From Terriglobia bacterium (GTDB taxonomy: Bacteria; Acidobacteriota; Terriglobia; JAIQFV01), in contig JAQUPQ010000035.1 of NCBI GenBank assembly GCA_028716525.1, positions 1-42,719 on the forward strand: DNA of 42,719 nucleotides, given 5' to 3'. The position numbers and the translations under genes are program-made. Under the pieces are notes generated by a model. It was not told the DNA's origin, searched no databases, and saw nothing but the letters and a program-made list of their open reading frames with translations. Positions 8,527-33,870 of the stretch are shown piece after piece (within the stretch, counting starts at the first letter, position 1; each line of letters opens with the position of its first letter).

Positions 8527-9158
8527 ACTCTTGTCTCCTGAACTCCAGATTTGGAGAGGACGTCTGCATCCAGCGGGCAAATTCCATCTCCCAAGTTCTG
8601 CGCCACCCAGGCCGGACCACGATGAAGGTTGCTCTTTGCCTCGTGACTTGTCGCAACATAAGAGGCTGGCGGTCCGGCTAAATCTTTCCGCGAGCGGTTC
8701 AGGTTTTCCGCCGCCCATCCAACTGGATTTATTTTCAAAACTACCAGTTAGCGGGGATGCCTCTCCAAAAAGGGTGGTTGCCAGCAAGGTGTGATTCAGC
8801 CTGCCGAAATCTCGTCTTCACTTGCCAAGAGGAATGCATATTCAAAGAGTTATCGTGTGGATAACAGCATTGAAATAGTTTGTCTTTTCTGCAAGAAAAT
8901 ACGCTTCCTGAAGACATCAACCACAAAAGAATTTCGGTAGTGACTCATTTTGAATGGGGTGGCGCACACATGCGCTCCAGGCATGTGTGCGGAGTCCCCC
9001 TTGTTGATGTACGCACACATCGTCCGCCACGGCGGCCGATGTATGCGCCACCCAGAGGTGAAAAAGAATTCAGAATGAGTCACTACCAGAATTTCGATCA
9101 AATTCGAGATTTCGAGGGGTGTGATAGGATAGCGGCTTGTCTTTTGAGGGCGATTTTC
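8527..9158. other. Divergent spacer holding a MITE insertion
   Basis: This spacer lies between the minus-strand secreted protein and the ThDP enzyme genes. 8527-8927 shows no gene. It holds an imperfect operator-like palindrome, GTTATC GTGTG GATAAC (8849-8865), which includes one DnaA-box-like 9-mer on the minus strand. 8928-9096 is the mobile element with its target duplication. 9097-9158 is the leader of the next gene. Confidence 0.6.
8937..9087. mobile_element. MITE-like non-autonomous element, copy 1
   Basis: This 151-bp element has terminal inverted repeats: GTAGTGACTCATTTTGAAT at the left, matching the reverse complement of the right end (GTAGTGACTCATTCTGAAT) at 18 of 19 positions. It is flanked by a perfect 9-bp direct repeat, AGAATTTCG (8928-8936 and 9088-9096), the mark of a transposition event. 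Inside are a 10-bp stem (GCACACATGC/GCATGTGTGC, loop GCTCCAG) and further complementary GTGGCGCA/TGCGCCAC blocks, so one strand can fold over most of its length. It encodes no transposase. A second copy at 24497-24646 is ~97% identical. A 9-bp duplication is typical of several DDE families (for example IS1, IS4/Tn5-like and some IS5-group elements); the helper is not in this window. Confidence 0.88.
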
Positions 9159-9704
9159 ATGATTTCTGCGCAACGATTGCTGGAGGAACTAAAGCGTCGC
9201 GGTGTGACCCACCTGGTCGGACTTCCCGACAATTCTTCGGCTCCGCTTTTCTCTTTGTTACAGGGAAACGGTGACGTTCGATTGATCGCGGTGACGCGTG
9301 AAGGGGAGGCCTTCGCCTTGGCGGCCGGATTGTGGATGGGAGGGAAAACACCGGCCTTGCTGATTCAGAACACCGGTCTTTTGGAAAGCGGCGATGCCCT
9401 TCGCGGAACTGTTTCCCGCATGAGAATTCCCTTGCTGTGCCTGATTACGTACCGCGGTTTCAAGAGCCTGAAATCGACCTCCAGCGAATCTGCGGAGATG
9501 CAGCCGCCTTTTTCCCCGAATCTCTTGAGTCGGCCGGACGTGGATTCAACCGCCCTGGTCACCGAACCGACGTTGCGAGCTTGGGGAATTCCATATTTCT
9601 TTCTGAAGGATGACCAAGGTCTGGCCGGGTTGGACGAAGCGGTTGAAGAAGCCGAACGTTTGTCTCATCCCGTGGCGGTGCTGATTACCGAGGGAATGAA
9701 ATGA
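9159..9704 (+). CDS. Thiamine-diphosphate decarboxylase, alpha (PYR-type) subunit
   Basis: 181 aa from the ATG at 9159. GAGGG at 9146-9150 gives good Shine-Dalgarno spacing, and the longer open frame upstream would read through the MITE, so it is rejected. The sequence matches the N-terminal pyrimidine-binding half of ThDP decarboxylases: LVGLPDNSSAPLFSLL, VTREGEAFALAAGLWMGGK (the Glu of REGEA is the conserved cofactor-activating glutamate), LLIQNTGLLESGDALRG. Size and split arrangement resemble sulfopyruvate decarboxylase ComD and the N-terminal part of phosphonopyruvate decarboxylase. The partner subunit starts 43 bp downstream. No PEP mutase or coenzyme M genes are nearby, so the 2-oxoacid substrate is unknown. 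The MITE ends 71 bp before the start codon. Confidence 0.82.
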   Translation: MISAQRLLEELKRRGVTHLVGLPDNSSAPLFSLLQGNGDVRLIAVTREGEAFALAAGLWMGGKTPALLIQNTGLLESGDALRGTVSRMRIPLLCLITYRGFKSLKSTSSESAEMQPPFSPNLLSRPDVDSTALVTEPTLRAWGIPYFFLKDDQGLAGLDEAVEEAERLSHPVAVLITEGMK

Positions 9705-9747: not shown

Positions 9748-10371
9748 ATGCTGACGAAAGAACAGCTTCTGTTACCGCTCAGTCGAAATCGTGGTGACGC
9801 GATCGTCGTGACCACCATGGGAGTGGTCCGCCCGTGGGGGAAGATTTCACACTCCGACTTGGATTTTGCTTCCGCCGACAGTGCCATGGGACACGCTGCG
9901 GATTTGGCCTTGGGAATTGCCTTGGCTCAGCCGCAACGAAAAGTCATCTGCCTGAATGGCGACGGCAGCATGCTGATGTCCTTGGGAACTTTGGTGACCA
10001 TCGTCGGGAGCGGCGTTTCCAATCTGATCTTGTTCGTGATCCAAAATGGAACTTATGAAATCACGGGCAATCAATCCATCCCCGCCGGTGAGCATATCGA
10101 TTTTTTGATGATGGCTCGAGCCGCAGGCTTCCAGCGACTGTACCGATTCAACGAACCGACCGAATTCACCGGTCAGTTGCCTGAAATTCTTTCCGGGAAG
10201 GGGCCGGTGTTTGTTCTTGTCCACATCAAGCCTGGGACGGAAGGCCCCATCCGCCGCCACGAGGAAGAGGAGTCGCAATATCTGAAGGTCTCACTTGCAG
10301 AGTCTTGTCATCGCATGCGAAAAGTTCTGAGCGGCTCTGATGTTGCTTCGGATTTATTGACGAAGATTTAA
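9748..10371 (+). CDS. Thiamine-diphosphate decarboxylase, beta (PP-type) subunit
   Basis: 207 aa; the cofactor diphosphate-binding half. The metal/diphosphate motif GDGS at ~71-74 is followed by Asn100 in IQNGTYEITGNQ, about the 26-residue spacing typical of this motif. SADSAMGHAADLALGIALA (~42-60) and the C-terminal GPVFVLVHIKPGTEGPI agree with the ComE/phosphonopyruvate decarboxylase C-terminal half. It should form a heteromer with the product of 9159-9704. The nearest GGAG is 16 nt from the ATG, so translation may rely on coupling to the upstream gene. No other in-frame start fits better. The substrate is not determined. Confidence 0.82.
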   Translation: MLTKEQLLLPLSRNRGDAIVVTTMGVVRPWGKISHSDLDFASADSAMGHAADLALGIALAQPQRKVICLNGDGSMLMSLGTLVTIVGSGVSNLILFVIQNGTYEITGNQSIPAGEHIDFLMMARAAGFQRLYRFNEPTEFTGQLPEILSGKGPVFVLVHIKPGTEGPIRRHEEEESQYLKVSLAESCHRMRKVLSGSDVASDLLTKI

Positions 10372-19112: not shown

Positions 19113-19577
19113 TTGACCAAACATAGTGCAGGATTATTGATGTACCGATGCCGCGGTGACCGGGTGGAAGTGTTTCTGGTCCATCCCGGTGGACCTTTTT
19201 GGGTCAACAAAGACTTGGGTGCGTGGTCCATTCCCAAAGGTGAATTTGAACCGCCCGAGGAGGCCTTAAGCGCCGCGCAACGAGAGTTTGAAGAAGAAAC
19301 GGGGTTCAAGGCCCGCGGACCTTTCATATCCTTAACCCCTGTGCGGCAGAAGAATGGAAAGATTGTTGACGCTTGGGCATGCGAAGGCGATTGCGACCCG
19401 GCAGACCTGAAGAGCAACATGTTCGCTATGGAATGGCCGCTCCACTCCAGCCGCCGCCAGGAATTTTCTGAAGTCGATCGCGCGGGTTGGTTCGGATTGG
19501 AAGAAGCCGGACGGAAAATTCTTCCCGGACAAAGCGCATTCCTGGAGGAGTTATCCAAATTGATCGGTCAAGCCTGA
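19113..19577 (+). CDS. Nudix hydrolase
   Basis: 154 aa. The Nudix box is complete at ~43-65 (GEFEPPEEALSAAQREFEE then ETGF): Gx5Ex7REUxEExGU. The start MTKHSAGLLMYRCRGDRVEV is typical of bacterial Nudix proteins that act on diadenosine polyphosphates, dNTPs or similar nucleoside-diphosphate-linked substrates. The start codon is TTG with GGAGG only 3 nt upstream. The next in-frame ATG (19140) would remove the first beta strand, so TTG is preferred. The substrate is not predictable. It is cytoplasmic and probably monocistronic; a heptamer repeat follows the stop codon. Confidence 0.9.
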   Translation: MTKHSAGLLMYRCRGDRVEVFLVHPGGPFWVNKDLGAWSIPKGEFEPPEEALSAAQREFEEETGFKARGPFISLTPVRQKNGKIVDAWACEGDCDPADLKSNMFAMEWPLHSSRRQEFSEVDRAGWFGLEEAGRKILPGQSAFLEELSKLIGQA

Positions 19578-19600
19578 TTCGGGAAGGGGTGTTGGAAGGC

Positions 19601-19628
19601 AGGTGTCGGGTGTCAGGTGTCGGGTGTT
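19601..19628. repeat. RGGTGYC heptamer array (4 units)
   Basis: AGGTGTC GGGTGTC AGGTGTC GGGTGTT in perfect heptad phase, 23 bp after the Nudix stop codon. It is the same family as the arrays at 32912-32974 and 33079-33155. Confidence 0.8.
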
Positions 19629-19787
19629 GGGGAAAGGCTTTGAGGTGGCGAGAGTTGATAAGGTTTACTGTGCCAACCCGGAGGCTGTTGGATGCTTCCT
19701 TCTGTCTCTCCTCATTCAAACGCGTTATACTCTTTCCCTCCGTTTTAAGGCTTCATTGAATTTCTAATCTTCATTTCGAGGTGAATC

Positions 19788-24331: not shown

Positions 24332-24698
24332 CATCTGTGTTCGACATGAAGCTTCAGCGGTTTGCTGATTAACTGTTGCACCGCGCAACGCTCCAATCAA
24401 TCCTCCAGAAAATCAGGTATCGGCGGAACCCATGAGGCTATTTCTCCGTATCTTAATGATGAAGAATTCATGGTAGCGGATAAACGCCGATTGGGGGTAG
24501 TGACTCATTTTGAATAGGGTGGCGCACACATGCGCTCCAGGCATGTGTGCTGAGTCCCCCTGTTGATGTACGCACACATCGTCCGCCACGGCGGCCGATG
24601 TATGCGCCACCCAGAGGTGAAAAAGAATTCAAAATGAGCCACTACCCGATTGGCGAGCAATCACCTGCGGAAGTTTATCTTGTGAGAGGGTCCTCCTG
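24332..24698. other. Spacer with MITE copy 2, no gene
   Basis: 367 bp. 24332-24487 has no feature I recognise beyond a small stem (GTTGC/GCAAC near 24375). 24488-24655 is the MITE with its target duplication. The remaining ~45 bp is the leader of the permease gene. Confidence 0.6.
24497..24646. mobile_element. MITE-like non-autonomous element, copy 2
   Basis: A 150-bp element, ~97% identical to 8937-9087 (four substitutions and one single-base deletion by eye), in the same orientation. The inverted ends are GTAGTGACTCATTTTGAAT and, on the other strand, GTAGTGGCTCATTTTGAAT. The flanks form a 9-bp direct repeat with one mismatch (CGATTGGGG 24488-24496, CGATTGGCG 24647-24655). The decayed duplication suggests an older insertion than copy 1. 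It ends 52 bp before the start codon of the permease gene. Confidence 0.88.
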
Positions 24699-27164
24699 AT
24701 GTTTGATACGCTCCGGCAAGACCTCAAGTATGGCCTGCGGTTGATGTGGAAGGACAAGTCGTTCTCGCTGACAGCTGTGGCCACCTTATCGCTCTGCATC
24801 GGGGCCAACGCTGTCATCTTCAGTTTTATTCATTCGGTTCTTTTCAAACCCTTGCCGTTTCCCCAGGCCGATCGCTTGATTACTATCTTCAACAGCTATC
24901 CCAATGTGGGCGTGAAACGAGCCAGCAACAGCGGTCCGGATTTCTATGACCGCCGGCGCGCTTTGACGGCCTGTGAGGATGTGGCCGTGTATCAAACGCA
25001 AGGAATGACGATTGGAGAAAGCGGGTCTGTTCAACAGGTCCAAGGCATGAACGTGAGCCCTTCCTTTTTCCGGTTGCTGCGGACTCAGCCGATCCTCGGG
25101 CGCATTTTCACCGAGGATGAGGGCGAGGAGGGGAATGAGAAGCGCGCCATCCTGAGTTATGAGCTATGGCAGGAGCTGTACGGTGGGGACCGCTCCGTCA
25201 TCGGAAAGAACCTGCGCATATATGGCAATCCCTTTCAGATCGTCGGCGTCCTCCCCAAAAATTTTCAATTTGTTGATCCCAAAGTGAGGCTGTGGAGACC
25301 GATTGCTTTCACGCCACGGCAAAGGATAGCCCGTCACAGTAACAGCTGGGATATGTTCGGACGGCTGAAACCCGGTGCTACGTTGGAACAAGTGCGCAGT
25401 CAACTTCAAACCCTGAACGCGGCCAATCTCGACCTCACGCCCGATCTCAAACCACTGCTCCTCAACGCCGGATTTCATACGGAAGCTTACGACCTCGAAT
25501 CCGATCTGGTTCGCGAAGTTCGGGGGGCATTATATTTCCTTTGGGGAGCCGCTTTGCTGGTGCTGTTGATTGGGGCCGTCAACATCGCGAACCTGATCTT
25601 GGCGAGATCTACCATTCGCGCCAAAGAACTGGCGACGCGGTTGGCGATGGGAGCGGGGCGTTGGCGCGTGGCCGCACAGTTGATAACAGAAAATACTTTG
25701 GTGACATTGCTGAGTGCCTTGGTGGGCTTGTTGCTTGGATTTTGGAGCCTGCGCCTGTTGAGATCGTTCGCCTTGGAATTCATTCCCCGCGGCAGCGAAA
25801 TCGCGTTGGATTGGAAAGTGGTTCTCTTCATTATTGCTTTGGCCACGGTGCTGGGTCTGGCGATCGGTTTGATCCCGATAGTGCACGCCTTCCGCATTCA
25901 TCTCACCACCTTGTTGCGGGCCGAGGGTCGTGCCGGAACCAGTACGCGCCGGGCTCGCATCTTTCGCAGCGTGCTGGTGACTGTTCAAGTGGCCTTTGCG
26001 TTGATCCTGCTGGTAGGGGCGGGATTGTTGGCGGCCAGCTTTCGCGCAGTCTTGGGGATCAAACCGGGTTTTGTGACTGAGGGCGTCTGGACGGGGACCA
26101 TCGCACTTCCCAGCGTCAGGTACAAAGAAGAAGATAAGCAGAGAGAATTCATGCAGCGTGCGCTGGACCATATTCGATCCATTCCCGGAGTGGTCGGGGC
26201 AGGCGCCACAAACACGATTCCGATGGGCAACAATGAAAGCGACAGCGTTATTTTTGCGGAAGGATACGTCATGCAGCCGGGCGAATCCGTGATTTCCCCT
26301 CAGCAAATTGTGGTCACACCGGGTTATTTCGAAACCCTGGGAATTCCCTTAAGGGAAGGTCGGTTGTTTGATTCCCGTGACACCGAAAAATCGCTCAAGG
26401 TGTTGGTGATTGATGAGCAGTTGGCCAAAAAGTTCTGGCCCAACACCAGTCCCATCGGAAAACGCATGTGGCAACCCGGGGACGCCAATGAAGTAACCCA
26501 TCCGGGACCCCGGACCCAATGGTATACCGTTGTCGGGGTTGTCGGAAATGTCAAGACTCGTGGCCTGGTGAACACCGACGCGCGCCTGGGAACCTACTAC
26601 TATCCATACGCCCAGAATGCCGATTCGGTGATGACCTTTGCAGTACGGACCGGCATTCCGGCACAGACATTGACGCCCGCCATTCAAACGGCGATCTCAA
26701 GGCTGGATCCCGAGCTGCCGGTTTACGACGTGCGGACGCTCCAAGAGCGCCTGGACGAATCTCTGATCACCCGCAAATCGCCCATGTTGATGGCGCTGGG
26801 CTTTGCCATCGTGGCGTTGATGCTGGCGGGCCTGGGGATTTACGGCGTCCTGGCGTATGTGGTGTCGCAACGCAGCCGCGAAATTGGCATCCGCATGGCC
26901 TTGGGCGGGACGGCGCAGAGAATTTTTCAAATGGTTTTGCGCGAGGGGCTGTTGATCATCGGCATCGGAATGGCCGTGGGCATTGGCGGAGCCGTGGGGC
27001 TGCGGCGATTCCTTCAGAGCCAGCTTTACGGCGTGCAACCCATGAACCCTGAAGTGTTGGCATCCGTTCTTGTGATTCTTTTGGCGGTCGGCTTCTTCGC
27101 CTGCGCCTTGCCGGCCCGGCGCGCTACGCGCGTCAATCCCGTCGTGGCGTTGCGCGAAGAGTAA
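24699..27164 (+). CDS. MacB/FtsX-like ABC permease (duplicated orphan permease type), first copy
   Basis: 821 aa. It begins LRQDLKYGLRLMWKDKSFSL followed by a first membrane helix (LTAVATLSLCIGANAVIFSFI) and the motif LPFPQADRLI. This is the MacB periplasmic core domain layout, then an FtsX domain near ~285-430. A second periplasmic domain follows, with a final FtsX block (~700-821: LAGLGIYGVLAYVVSQRSRE, then IGIRMALGG). Two fused core/FtsX units without an ATPase are characteristic of the acidobacterial duplicated orphan permease family. Related MacB proteins couple to an ATPase for export of peptides or lipoproteins. No ATPase gene is adjacent. The Shine-Dalgarno is GAGAGGG about 11 nt upstream. 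The next gene is a diverged paralogue. Confidence 0.92.
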   Translation: MFDTLRQDLKYGLRLMWKDKSFSLTAVATLSLCIGANAVIFSFIHSVLFKPLPFPQADRLITIFNSYPNVGVKRASNSGPDFYDRRRALTACEDVAVYQTQGMTIGESGSVQQVQGMNVSPSFFRLLRTQPILGRIFTEDEGEEGNEKRAILSYELWQELYGGDRSVIGKNLRIYGNPFQIVGVLPKNFQFVDPKVRLWRPIAFTPRQRIARHSNSWDMFGRLKPGATLEQVRSQLQTLNAANLDLTPDLKPLLLNAGFHTEAYDLESDLVREVRGALYFLWGAALLVLLIGAVNIANLILARSTIRAKELATRLAMGAGRWRVAAQLITENTLVTLLSALVGLLLGFWSLRLLRSFALEFIPRGSEIALDWKVVLFIIALATVLGLAIGLIPIVHAFRIHLTTLLRAEGRAGTSTRRARIFRSVLVTVQVAFALILLVGAGLLAASFRAVLGIKPGFVTEGVWTGTIALPSVRYKEEDKQREFMQRALDHIRSIPGVVGAGATNTIPMGNNESDSVIFAEGYVMQPGESVISPQQIVVTPGYFETLGIPLREGRLFDSRDTEKSLKVLVIDEQLAKKFWPNTSPIGKRMWQPGDANEVTHPGPRTQWYTVVGVVGNVKTRGLVNTDARLGTYYYPYAQNADSVMTFAVRTGIPAQTLTPAIQTAISRLDPELPVYDVRTLQERLDESLITRKSPMLMALGFAIVALMLAGLGIYGVLAYVVSQRSREIGIRMALGGTAQRIFQMVLREGLLIIGIGMAVGIGGAVGLRRFLQSQLYGVQPMNPEVLASVLVILLAVGFFACALPARRATRVNPVVALREE

Positions 27165-31604: not shown

Positions 31605-32906
31605 ATGTCCATGATCCAGGATCGCCCGGTGCACAGCCCTGCGTTCCGCCGCCGGCGGGCGCTGAACTGGCTGATGCTGGGGACAACCTATGCCTCGATG
31701 TACATGGCCCGCTACAACCTTTCCTTTGCCAACAAATCGCTTTCCGACACCTTCGGATGGGACAAAGCGGAAGTGGGCGCCATCATTTCGATGATGTTGA
31801 CGATTTATGGGGTCTCGGCCTTGTTCAACGGGCCCATCGCCGACCGCATCGGCGGGCGTCGCGCCATGCTGATCGGAGTCTGTGGCGCCATCGTTTCGAA
31901 TCTGGCATTCGGCTTGGGTGCTTACCTGCACTTCCTCGGGACCGGCCCGGTCTTGCTGGCCTATCTTTCCACCGTGTGGGCCTTGAACGGTTACTTCCAA
32001 TCGTATAGCGCCCTCTCACTCATCAAGGTGAACTCCGCTTGGTTTCATGTCCGTGAACGAGGAGTATTCTCCGCCATCTTCGGATCCATGATTCAGGGCG
32101 GACGCGTTCTGATCTACGTGATTGGTCCGCTGGCGGTGACCTTTTTGCCTTGGCAATGGGTGTTTTTCATTCCCTCGGGAATCATGGTGGTGATGGCGGT
32201 GCTCACCTATTTATTTGTTCGGGACGCTCCCGTCGACACCGGTCACGAAGATTTTGATACGGCCGATGCCACCAGCGGCGATACGGGGAAGGTGGATTTG
32301 GCATATCTGTTCAAGAAGGTCTTTACCAATCCCATCACGCTGACCATTGCGGCTGCGGAGTTTTGCACCGGCTTTGTACGGCATGGATTTGAGCAGTGGT
32401 TCCCTCGCTACATGCAGGAAGCCCAGCACCTGGCACTCAATTCCCGGATCTTTGAATCCGGCGCCTTGGCCGTCGTGGCCACGGGAATTCTGGGGGCTTT
32501 TGCAGCCGGAACAGTTTCCGACTGGGTGTTTCATTCTCGCCGTCCGCCCGTGGCTTTTCTGGGTTACGCTATGCAAGTTGTCAGCCTGGGCATGATCTGG
32601 TGGGCGCCCAATCTCACGGTGATCATGGCAGCGTTCATTCTGAATTCGTTTGCGATCAGCATGGTTCATTCCATGCTGTCCGGAACGGCTTCGATGGATT
32701 TTGGCGGAAAGAGAGCAGCGGCCAGCGCCACGGGAATGTTCGATGGAATGCAGTATATCGGCGGCTCGGCGGTGGGCATCGGCATGGGCTGGATGCTGGA
32801 GAGATTCGGGTGGGGCGTTTGGGGACCTAGTATGATCGGCTTTTCGGTGATCGGCGCCGTTCTGATGCTGCGTCTGTGGAACGTGGTGCCGAGGAGCAGG
32901 GGCTAG
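31605..32906 (+). CDS. MFS transporter, organophosphate:phosphate antiporter (GlpT/UhpT-like)
   Basis: 433 aa with about 12 membrane helices. Features of the OPA family: TYASMYMARYNLSFANKSL near the N-terminus, GVSALFNGPIADRIGGRRAM (the cytoplasmic loop 2-3 motif), and FEQWFPRYMQEAQHL in the second half. Characterised members swap phosphate for glycerol-3-phosphate or hexose-6-phosphate; the substrate here is not proven. The start is the ATG at 31605 after GGGGA. Heptamer repeats flank the gene on both sides. The stop codon lies 5 bp before a large inverted heptamer array. Confidence 0.88.
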   Translation: MSMIQDRPVHSPAFRRRRALNWLMLGTTYASMYMARYNLSFANKSLSDTFGWDKAEVGAIISMMLTIYGVSALFNGPIADRIGGRRAMLIGVCGAIVSNLAFGLGAYLHFLGTGPVLLAYLSTVWALNGYFQSYSALSLIKVNSAWFHVRERGVFSAIFGSMIQGGRVLIYVIGPLAVTFLPWQWVFFIPSGIMVVMAVLTYLFVRDAPVDTGHEDFDTADATSGDTGKVDLAYLFKKVFTNPITLTIAAAEFCTGFVRHGFEQWFPRYMQEAQHLALNSRIFESGALAVVATGILGAFAAGTVSDWVFHSRRPPVAFLGYAMQVVSLGMIWWAPNLTVIMAAFILNSFAISMVHSMLSGTASMDFGGKRAAASATGMFDGMQYIGGSAVGIGMGWMLERFGWGVWGPSMIGFSVIGAVLMLRLWNVVPRSRG

Positions 32907-32911
32907 GGACC

Positions 32912-32974
32912 AGGTGCCGGGTGTCTGGTGCCGGGTGTCAGGTGCCGGGTGTCGGGTGTCAGGTACTGGGTACC
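32912..32974 (+). repeat. RGGTGYC heptamer array, left arm (9 units)
   Basis: Nine consecutive heptamers (AGGTGCC, GGGTGTC, TGGTGCC, GGGTGTC, AGGTGCC, GGGTGTC, GGGTGTC, AGGTACT, GGGTACC) start 5 bp after the MFS stop codon. They are the reverse complement of the array at 33079-33155. Confidence 0.85.
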
Positions 32975-33034
32975 AGTTCCATGGTGTGAGGAGCGAGAGG
33001 AACTCGGTTTTCAGAGGCCTGAATTCAATTAATA

Positions 33035-33054
33035 ATTACGAATTAAGAATAAGA
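33035..33054. repeat. ATTANGA heptamer array (about 3 units)
   Basis: ATTACGA ATTAAGA and a 6-base ATAAGA, inside the loop between the two inverted heptamer arrays. Related to the array at 31465-31492. Confidence 0.6.
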
Positions 33055-33078
33055 AATCTTCCTGACGCCATACCGCCT

Positions 33079-33155
33079 GACACCTCAATCCTGATCCCTG
33101 GCCCCTGAAACCTGATACCCGACACCCGGCACCTGACACCCGGCACCTCGCACCT
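33079..33155 (-). repeat. RGGTGYC heptamer array, right arm (11 units, inverted)
   Basis: Eleven heptamers of the form GRYACCY, degenerate at the left end, run up to and overlap by two bases the stop codon of the minus-strand P-loop gene. 33110-33147 pairs with 32927-32964 over 38 positions with a single G.T, leaving a 145-nt loop. Confidence 0.85.
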
Positions 33156-33870
33156 ACCTTCCTTCCCTCATTCTCCACAATCTTGCGGTGACACGTTCCA
33201 GCTCTTCTCCAATCAAGTTGGGGTCCAAGGTCTTCTCAGGCATATTTTCGAAAACGGCGTAGGGTATTTTGTGTCCTCGCACTTCGATGTGGTTCGAATC
33301 CTTCGCCTCGAGTTTTTCCCAATCGTTGGTCTTGTAATACGCCTCCATCTTCTCGTCGGGCAAGGAGTGATAAAGGATTGAATCCTCCTGGCCCTGGCGT
33401 GCCCGCCGATGATTCTTACGAACGGATTCTTCGTAGCTCACCCGGATATACATTAAAGAAGCCCGGCTGAGCATCTCGTCGGATAGAAACGTCAAGGCAT
33501 GGTAAATGGCATTGTCACCGCCACGGGCAAATTCTACCAGCGTAGTCATTTGGTTGTGATAAGCCGGGTCTCTGGCGATTTTCTTGCGGTAGTCCAAGGC
33601 CAGGCGTTTAATGTAAAGATCCCAGATGTAAGAATCTTTGAACCAGTACTTCTCATCGCTCCACACGCGCGGCTGACCCATTTGCGCCATCAAATCGTCG
33701 AGTTCAAAGGTTTCCCAGACATAAATGAAATCATCCAGCTCCTCGAAGCTGGCGATGTGGTATTTTTTCAAGCGCACCGCGGGATCGCACTTTTTCAAAA
33801 AATCGATGACTTCAGATTTTCCGGCGGCCGGTCGGCCGGTTATGATCAGAATGGGGAAGTGATCACTCAC
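33154..33870 (-). CDS. P-loop NTPase of unknown function (possible kinase)
   Basis: 238 aa, GTG start at 33870 with AAGGAAAA just upstream. Residues 7-20 (ILIITGRPAAGKSE) are a beta strand plus Walker A loop GxxxxGKS. The rest suits a nucleoside/small-molecule kinase-like fold: ASFEELDDFIYVWETFELDD, LVEFARGGDNAIYHALTFLS, then LMYIRVSYEESVRKNHRRAR, where an Arg-rich segment may form a lid. A Walker B is not obvious; VEFARGG might take the role. Trp, Tyr and acidic residues are frequent. I cannot assign a substrate. The 3' end overlaps a heptamer array. It converges on the MFS gene and is divergent from the small ORF at 33934. Confidence 0.8.
   Translation of the reverse strand: MSDHFPILIITGRPAAGKSEVIDFLKKCDPAVRLKKYHIASFEELDDFIYVWETFELDDLMAQMGQPRVWSDEKYWFKDSYIWDLYIKRLALDYRKKIARDPAYHNQMTTLVEFARGGDNAIYHALTFLSDEMLSRASLMYIRVSYEESVRKNHRRARQGQEDSILYHSLPDEKMEAYYKTNDWEKLEAKDSNHIEVRGHKIPYAVFENMPEKTLDPNLIGEELERVTARLWRMREGR

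Follow-up and report, generated by a model that had tools for sequence, protein, structure and literature searches.

A MITE family in a Terriglobia genome with IS1-type ends and a REP-like core

Two near-identical repeats of about 150 bp lie in the stretch of Terriglobia DNA analysed here (the window, 42,719 nucleotides), and they raise two questions: what moved them, and where did their interior come from? A sequence-only reading had taken them for copies of a recently mobile MITE. We have followed that reading through the draft genome (4.2 Mb in 104 contigs, 96.5% complete) and through a comparison set of 101 genomes, made up of this genome and 100 relatives, the nearest of which belong to another genus of the same taxonomic family and the next to the class level.

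The repeat and its target duplications

MITE copy 1 occupies positions 8936-9087 on the + strand (152 bp), and the segments 8936-8955 and 9068-9087 are its 20-bp terminal inverted repeats (TIRs); copy 2 lies at 24496-24646, also on the + strand (151 bp). The sequence-only reading had both copies and their inverted repeats, but it began each copy one G too late and gave the repeats 19 bp. The element is symmetric, of the form GGTAGTGACTCATTTTGAAT...ATTCAAAATGAGTCACTACC, in which GGTAGTGACTCATTTTGAAT returns as the inverted repeat. It is short, under the limit of about 400 bp for MITEs, and has no coding capacity, as had been said, and the foldable interior is borne out by a predicted RNA fold of -85.5 kcal/mol (z -8.6), as stable as which none of 200 shuffles came. 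A search against Rfam gave no match for the window or for four loci. The apparent start at 9160, just 5' of a TPP-enzyme ORF at 9748, lies 72 bp downstream of the end of copy 1, and a MacB/FtsX-type permease ORF at 24699 lies 52 bp downstream of the end of copy 2. From this placement, it is possible that the copies affect the adjoining genes, on the TPP-enzyme side and at the permease. Elsewhere in the window, degenerate tandem heptamers resembling GGTGTCGGGTGTCAGG occupy 19567-19645 and 32878-33156, and the latter array has an inverted copy 100-145 bp away.

Both copies are flanked by direct repeats, but these are 8 bp long and not 9 bp, as had been proposed. Around copy 1, AGAATTTC stands at 8928-8935 and again at 9088-9095 (no strand assigned); the 9-mer AGAATTTCG was read there because the base 3' of the right duplication is the same as the first G of the element. 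Around copy 2, the pair given as CGATTGGGG/CGATTGGCG is corrected to CGATTGGG at 24488-24495 and CGATTGGC at 24647-24654 (no strand assigned), with one mismatch. The wider family settles the length. A search of the whole draft found 16 full-length copies, in keeping with the expectation of many, and two more of about 100 bp that each lack one internal hairpin, which brings the family to 18. Among the 12 full copies that were machine-aligned, pairwise identity is 92-100% (mean 97%), and identity between the two flanks is 0.97 at 8 bp versus 0.42 at 7 bp and 0.39 at 9 bp; the fall at 9 bp rules out a 9-bp target duplication. All 16 full copies carry an 8-bp duplication, perfect in 12 and with one mismatch in four, where 0.006 of 16 copies would be expected by chance to match with at most one mismatch. 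The idea that flanking 9-mers would match at other copies fails as worded and survives with the corrected length.

Each of the 16 full copies has flanks unlike those of the others. A private 8-mer together with distinct flanks at each copy directly indicates that the copies transposed separately, and the claim of real transposition stands. The near identity of the copies is also what homologous recombination or segmental duplication would produce, but neither would give every one of the 16 its own duplication in its own surroundings, and we see virtually no chance that the copies arose in this way. When the empty sites of the 16 copies were reconstructed, most had no long gene frame that spans the junction; the two longest junction-crossing frames run into sequences resembling by eye a YchF-like GTPase and a leucyl-tRNA synthetase, and the insertion lies upstream of the apparent start. 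Beside one copy (L019, 1440-1860; contig C3 of the same draft, about 104240-104660), there is a run of N that has the left flank to either side of it, which is probably an assembly or scaffolding artefact due to the repeat.

Same-ends elements and their transposase

The ends are not confined to this family. The draft genome also holds same-ends elements of 45 bp (C22:59964), 103 bp (C3:104527) and 318 bp (C8:25087), with the perfect duplications CTCCAGAG, GAGCCAAC and CTTCAACG, respectively, as well as elements of 74 bp (C7), 324 bp (C3:167694) and 1110 bp (C83) and some solo ends. The same ends on the 45-, 74-, 318-, 324- and 1110-bp elements indicate that several non-autonomous families have used them. 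The 1110-bp element (C83:7156-8265; L068, 1657-2766) encloses an IS200-type Y1 transposase ORF and is apparently one transposon nested inside another. We considered and rejected it as the parent: its flanks are poorly matched, and its sole transposase is of a type, Y1, that makes no 8-bp duplications.

The parent transposase was said to be absent from the window, which is correct, and we found no fitting one in the draft genome either, using a single query and a 10-sequence profile, both of which were positive in sister genomes. The transposase has presumably been lost since or lies in sequence that the draft lacks. The 18-bp end, with at most two mismatches, is present in 46 of the 101 genomes, and in a scan of species genomes the exact 19-bp end occurs in Acidobacteriota, Bacteroidota, Proteobacteria and others. 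Ends were paired, 8-bp duplications were required, and the coding content was inspected. The longer element with the same ends and a transposase, which the sequence-only reading had foreseen, does exist, but only in other genomes, both of Acidobacteriota and of further phyla: complete elements there are 1.9-3.5 kb long, with perfect 8-bp duplications and a single transposase ORF of about 270-300 amino acids. Four have the same ends as the window MITE, namely L181 (2302 bp, duplication TGGCGCGC), L193 (2723 bp, CATTGCTG), L202 (2521 bp, TAGCTGTG) and L206 (3233 bp, GGAAAATC), all perfectly duplicated, the last with a broken transposase. Closely similar ends bound seven further complete, transposase-bearing elements (L132, L133, L134, L147, L148, L154 and L165), and the genome of L133 belongs to the window's own taxonomic family. 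A possible parent in G008 (C50:4654) has its right end beyond the end of the contig.

Every element with these ends and a transposase that we examined encodes one IS1-like DDE type, found in 45 of the 101 genomes. Two of the three transposases scanned match Pfam DDE_Tnp_IS1 (PF03400) above its cut-off, and the best NCBIfam match of all three is the IS1 family model NF033558, with scores of 67.6, 59.8 and 64.8, each below its cut-off of 100. Ten aligned transposases show 57-66% identity with the first and have CDEIW, TTDGH and YVERQ-type blocks in common; a search of solved structures with the transposase profile returned no match. The elements elsewhere also show IS1-type ends, with a GGTxxTG start, and 8-bp duplications, within the 8-9 bp of the IS1 family. 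We read this transposase, from its sequence, as an IS1-like lineage. It is conceivable that a different 8-bp-duplicating DDE family (e.g., IS1595, ISL3 or IS66) moved the MITE and that the ends are convergent, given the absence of a parent from the draft and given that the IS1595 and IS6 models match the transposases weakly and secondarily. However, IS1595 scores 23.6 bits versus 67.6 for IS1, and the uniform transposase type between these ends leaves this explanation improbable.

Of the transposase gene, two shorter derivatives, L136 (588 bp) and L186 (1046 bp), retain only the part that encodes the C-terminus, and we take them, as sequences, to be intermediates linking parent and MITE. Similarity between MITE and parent is limited to the ends. 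Altogether, it is very probable that the MITE family is trans-mobilised by an IS1-like DDE transposase, and we infer that this type moved the copies in the window. Such a transposase would bind the 20-bp ends and move or copy the MITE, which would be joined to a staggered 8-bp cut; repair would then leave the 8-bp duplications.

Besides the transposase, 1-2.5 kb of each parent element is taken up by other genes, among whose products are a Fic protein in L132, a proteasome-fold protein in L133 (similar by eye in L147 and L148), an AAA_21/AbiEii-like ATPase in L134, an XRE/IrrE-type protein in L206 and a Gp49-like protein in L202. The cargo protein of L181 resembles by eye the cargo of a transposase-less 1802-bp element in L131. 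These cargo-bearing IS1-like elements look like small transposons with putative toxin-antitoxin or defence-like cargo. Our literature search, which covered few subscription papers, found no direct precedent for passenger genes on IS1-type elements.

A REP-like core between the ends

Two GTGG-tagged, REP-like hairpins, inverted relative to each other and each beginning GGGTGGCGCA, make up the core of the MITE. In copy 1, the first hairpin lies at 8957-8992 on the + strand (GGGTGGCGCACACATGCG..GCATGTGTGCGG) and the second, inverted, at 9012-9053, where the minus strand reads GGGTGGCGCATACATCG..CGATGTGTGCG; the corresponding hairpins of copy 2 are at 24517-24552 (+) and 24571-24612 (-). With at most two mismatches, the hairpin motif has 79 matches in the genome, about half of them inside MITEs, versus 8 for the control. 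Elsewhere, complete inverted pairs without the ends measure 91-127 bp (G001, G002) or 79 bp (G081), and in G001 the REP-like units are present while the ends are nearly absent (one match). The hairpins that lack the ends, in the window's own genome and in those of sister genera, indicate that the core is a dispersed REP-dimer-like repeat independent of the ends.

One might attribute the movement of the family to the core, as REP doublets (REPINs) mobilised by a tyrosine (Y1/RAYT) transposase, with the outer inverted repeats incidental. The core is indeed an inverted REP-like pair, and there are 10 Y1 transposase genes in the genome. Yet Y1 transposition makes no target duplication, the 8-bp duplications lie outside the TIRs at all 16 copies, REP-like units without TIRs in other genomes bear no trace of the ends, and no core REP lies within 1.5 kb of any of the 10 Y1 genes. 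We regard this explanation as less probable still than a different DDE family. Because no Y1 gene adjoins a core REP, we also call the core REP-like and do not treat it as a proven REPIN.

The REP pair was likely captured between IS1-type ends. It would have come between two ends by insertion into an element or by deletion within one, and the chimera of REP and IS1 ends would then have been amplified as a single unit.

Other genomes hint that this has happened more than once. In G008 and G016, a palindrome, GGGCACGGCTTCAGCCGTGCC, has 248 and 245 matches, respectively, with at most three mismatches, many of them forming inverted pairs at a spacing of about 116 bp, and the end has 28 and 27 matches. 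End-pairs enclose this palindrome in 4 of 8 examined in G008 and 4 of 4 in G016, versus about 1% by chance, for end-pairs picked from a listing in which copies of one family are not independent. Six copies of GGGCACGGCTTCAGCCGTGCC without TIRs have no trace of the end (at best 9-10 of 18 bases, versus 15-18 in the MITEs). The same ends surround other palindrome pairs in G037, G101, G103 and G104. In G008, G016, G037 and a Chitinophagaceae MAG, the pairs between them are REP-like, genome-specific and unrelated in sequence. A second MITE-like family of G008 (L262-L265) is 247-304 bp long; it shares the ends but has a different palindrome pair, CCCAGGCCTTCAGGCCTGGG ... CCCAGGCGTAAACGCCTGGG, for its core.

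This distribution suggests that IS1-type ends have repeatedly joined local REP-dimer families, in a direction that we infer. Our more far-reaching proposal, against which we would ourselves lean slightly, is that the joining was independent each time and involved each host's common REP-dimer family, giving chimeric MITEs whose REP dimers are dispersed by means of a DDE transposase. If this is true, REP dimers have a second, RAYT-independent dispersal route. No direct precedent for REP dimers inside transposon ends came up in the same literature search, again with few subscription papers covered.

Comparison with known systems

The analysis assigns an orphan MITE to one type of transposase. It also shows that the interior of a bacterial MITE can be a dispersed palindrome pair of the host and not a deletion relic of the parent, which offers a possible, testable route for the spread of REP-like repeats without a transposase of their own. 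The REP-like core may be the reason for the strong folding of the MITE and may bear on its effect on neighbouring transcripts.

Among IS1 family elements, ISAba3 is reported to have an end beginning GGTGGTGTTTC.., and the composite insert that it bounds to be flanked by 8-bp duplications (PMC6382973). The elements described here resemble the family in their DDE_Tnp_IS1 and NF033558 matches and in GGTxxTG ends like those of ISAba3 (GGTGGTG..), but they differ in being 1.9-3.5 kb long with 1-2.5 kb of other genes and in falling below the NCBIfam cut-off. The MITE itself is close in kind to MITEAba12, which has 9-bp duplications and a coresident parent, ISAba12 (PMC6382973): both are about 110-150 bp long and non-coding, with TIRs and target duplications, and in both the parent was inferred from shared ends, to which the similarity is limited. 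In contrast, the window MITE has 8-bp duplications, an IS1-like parent type that is not in the draft, and a REP-dimer core.

That core has its counterpart in REPINs and GTAG-type REP head-to-head dimers (PMC3116915, PMC3733652), which are likewise dispersed, inverted pairs of tagged hairpins, set apart by some tens of bases; here, however, IS1-type ends with 8-bp duplications enclose the dimer, and no RAYT gene adjoins these REPs in the draft. By mechanism the MITE is ordinary, and its chimeric REP-dimer core is its one unusual feature. In the literature that we found, this architecture is only partly foreshadowed. In A. variabilis and H. neapolitanus, a 2013 survey described REP dimers that lie within longer palindromes and are thus similarly nested in a larger inverted repeat (PMC3733652, section 7). 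The outer palindromes there were not identified as transposon ends, whereas here they are ends, with target duplications and a transposase-bearing parent type.
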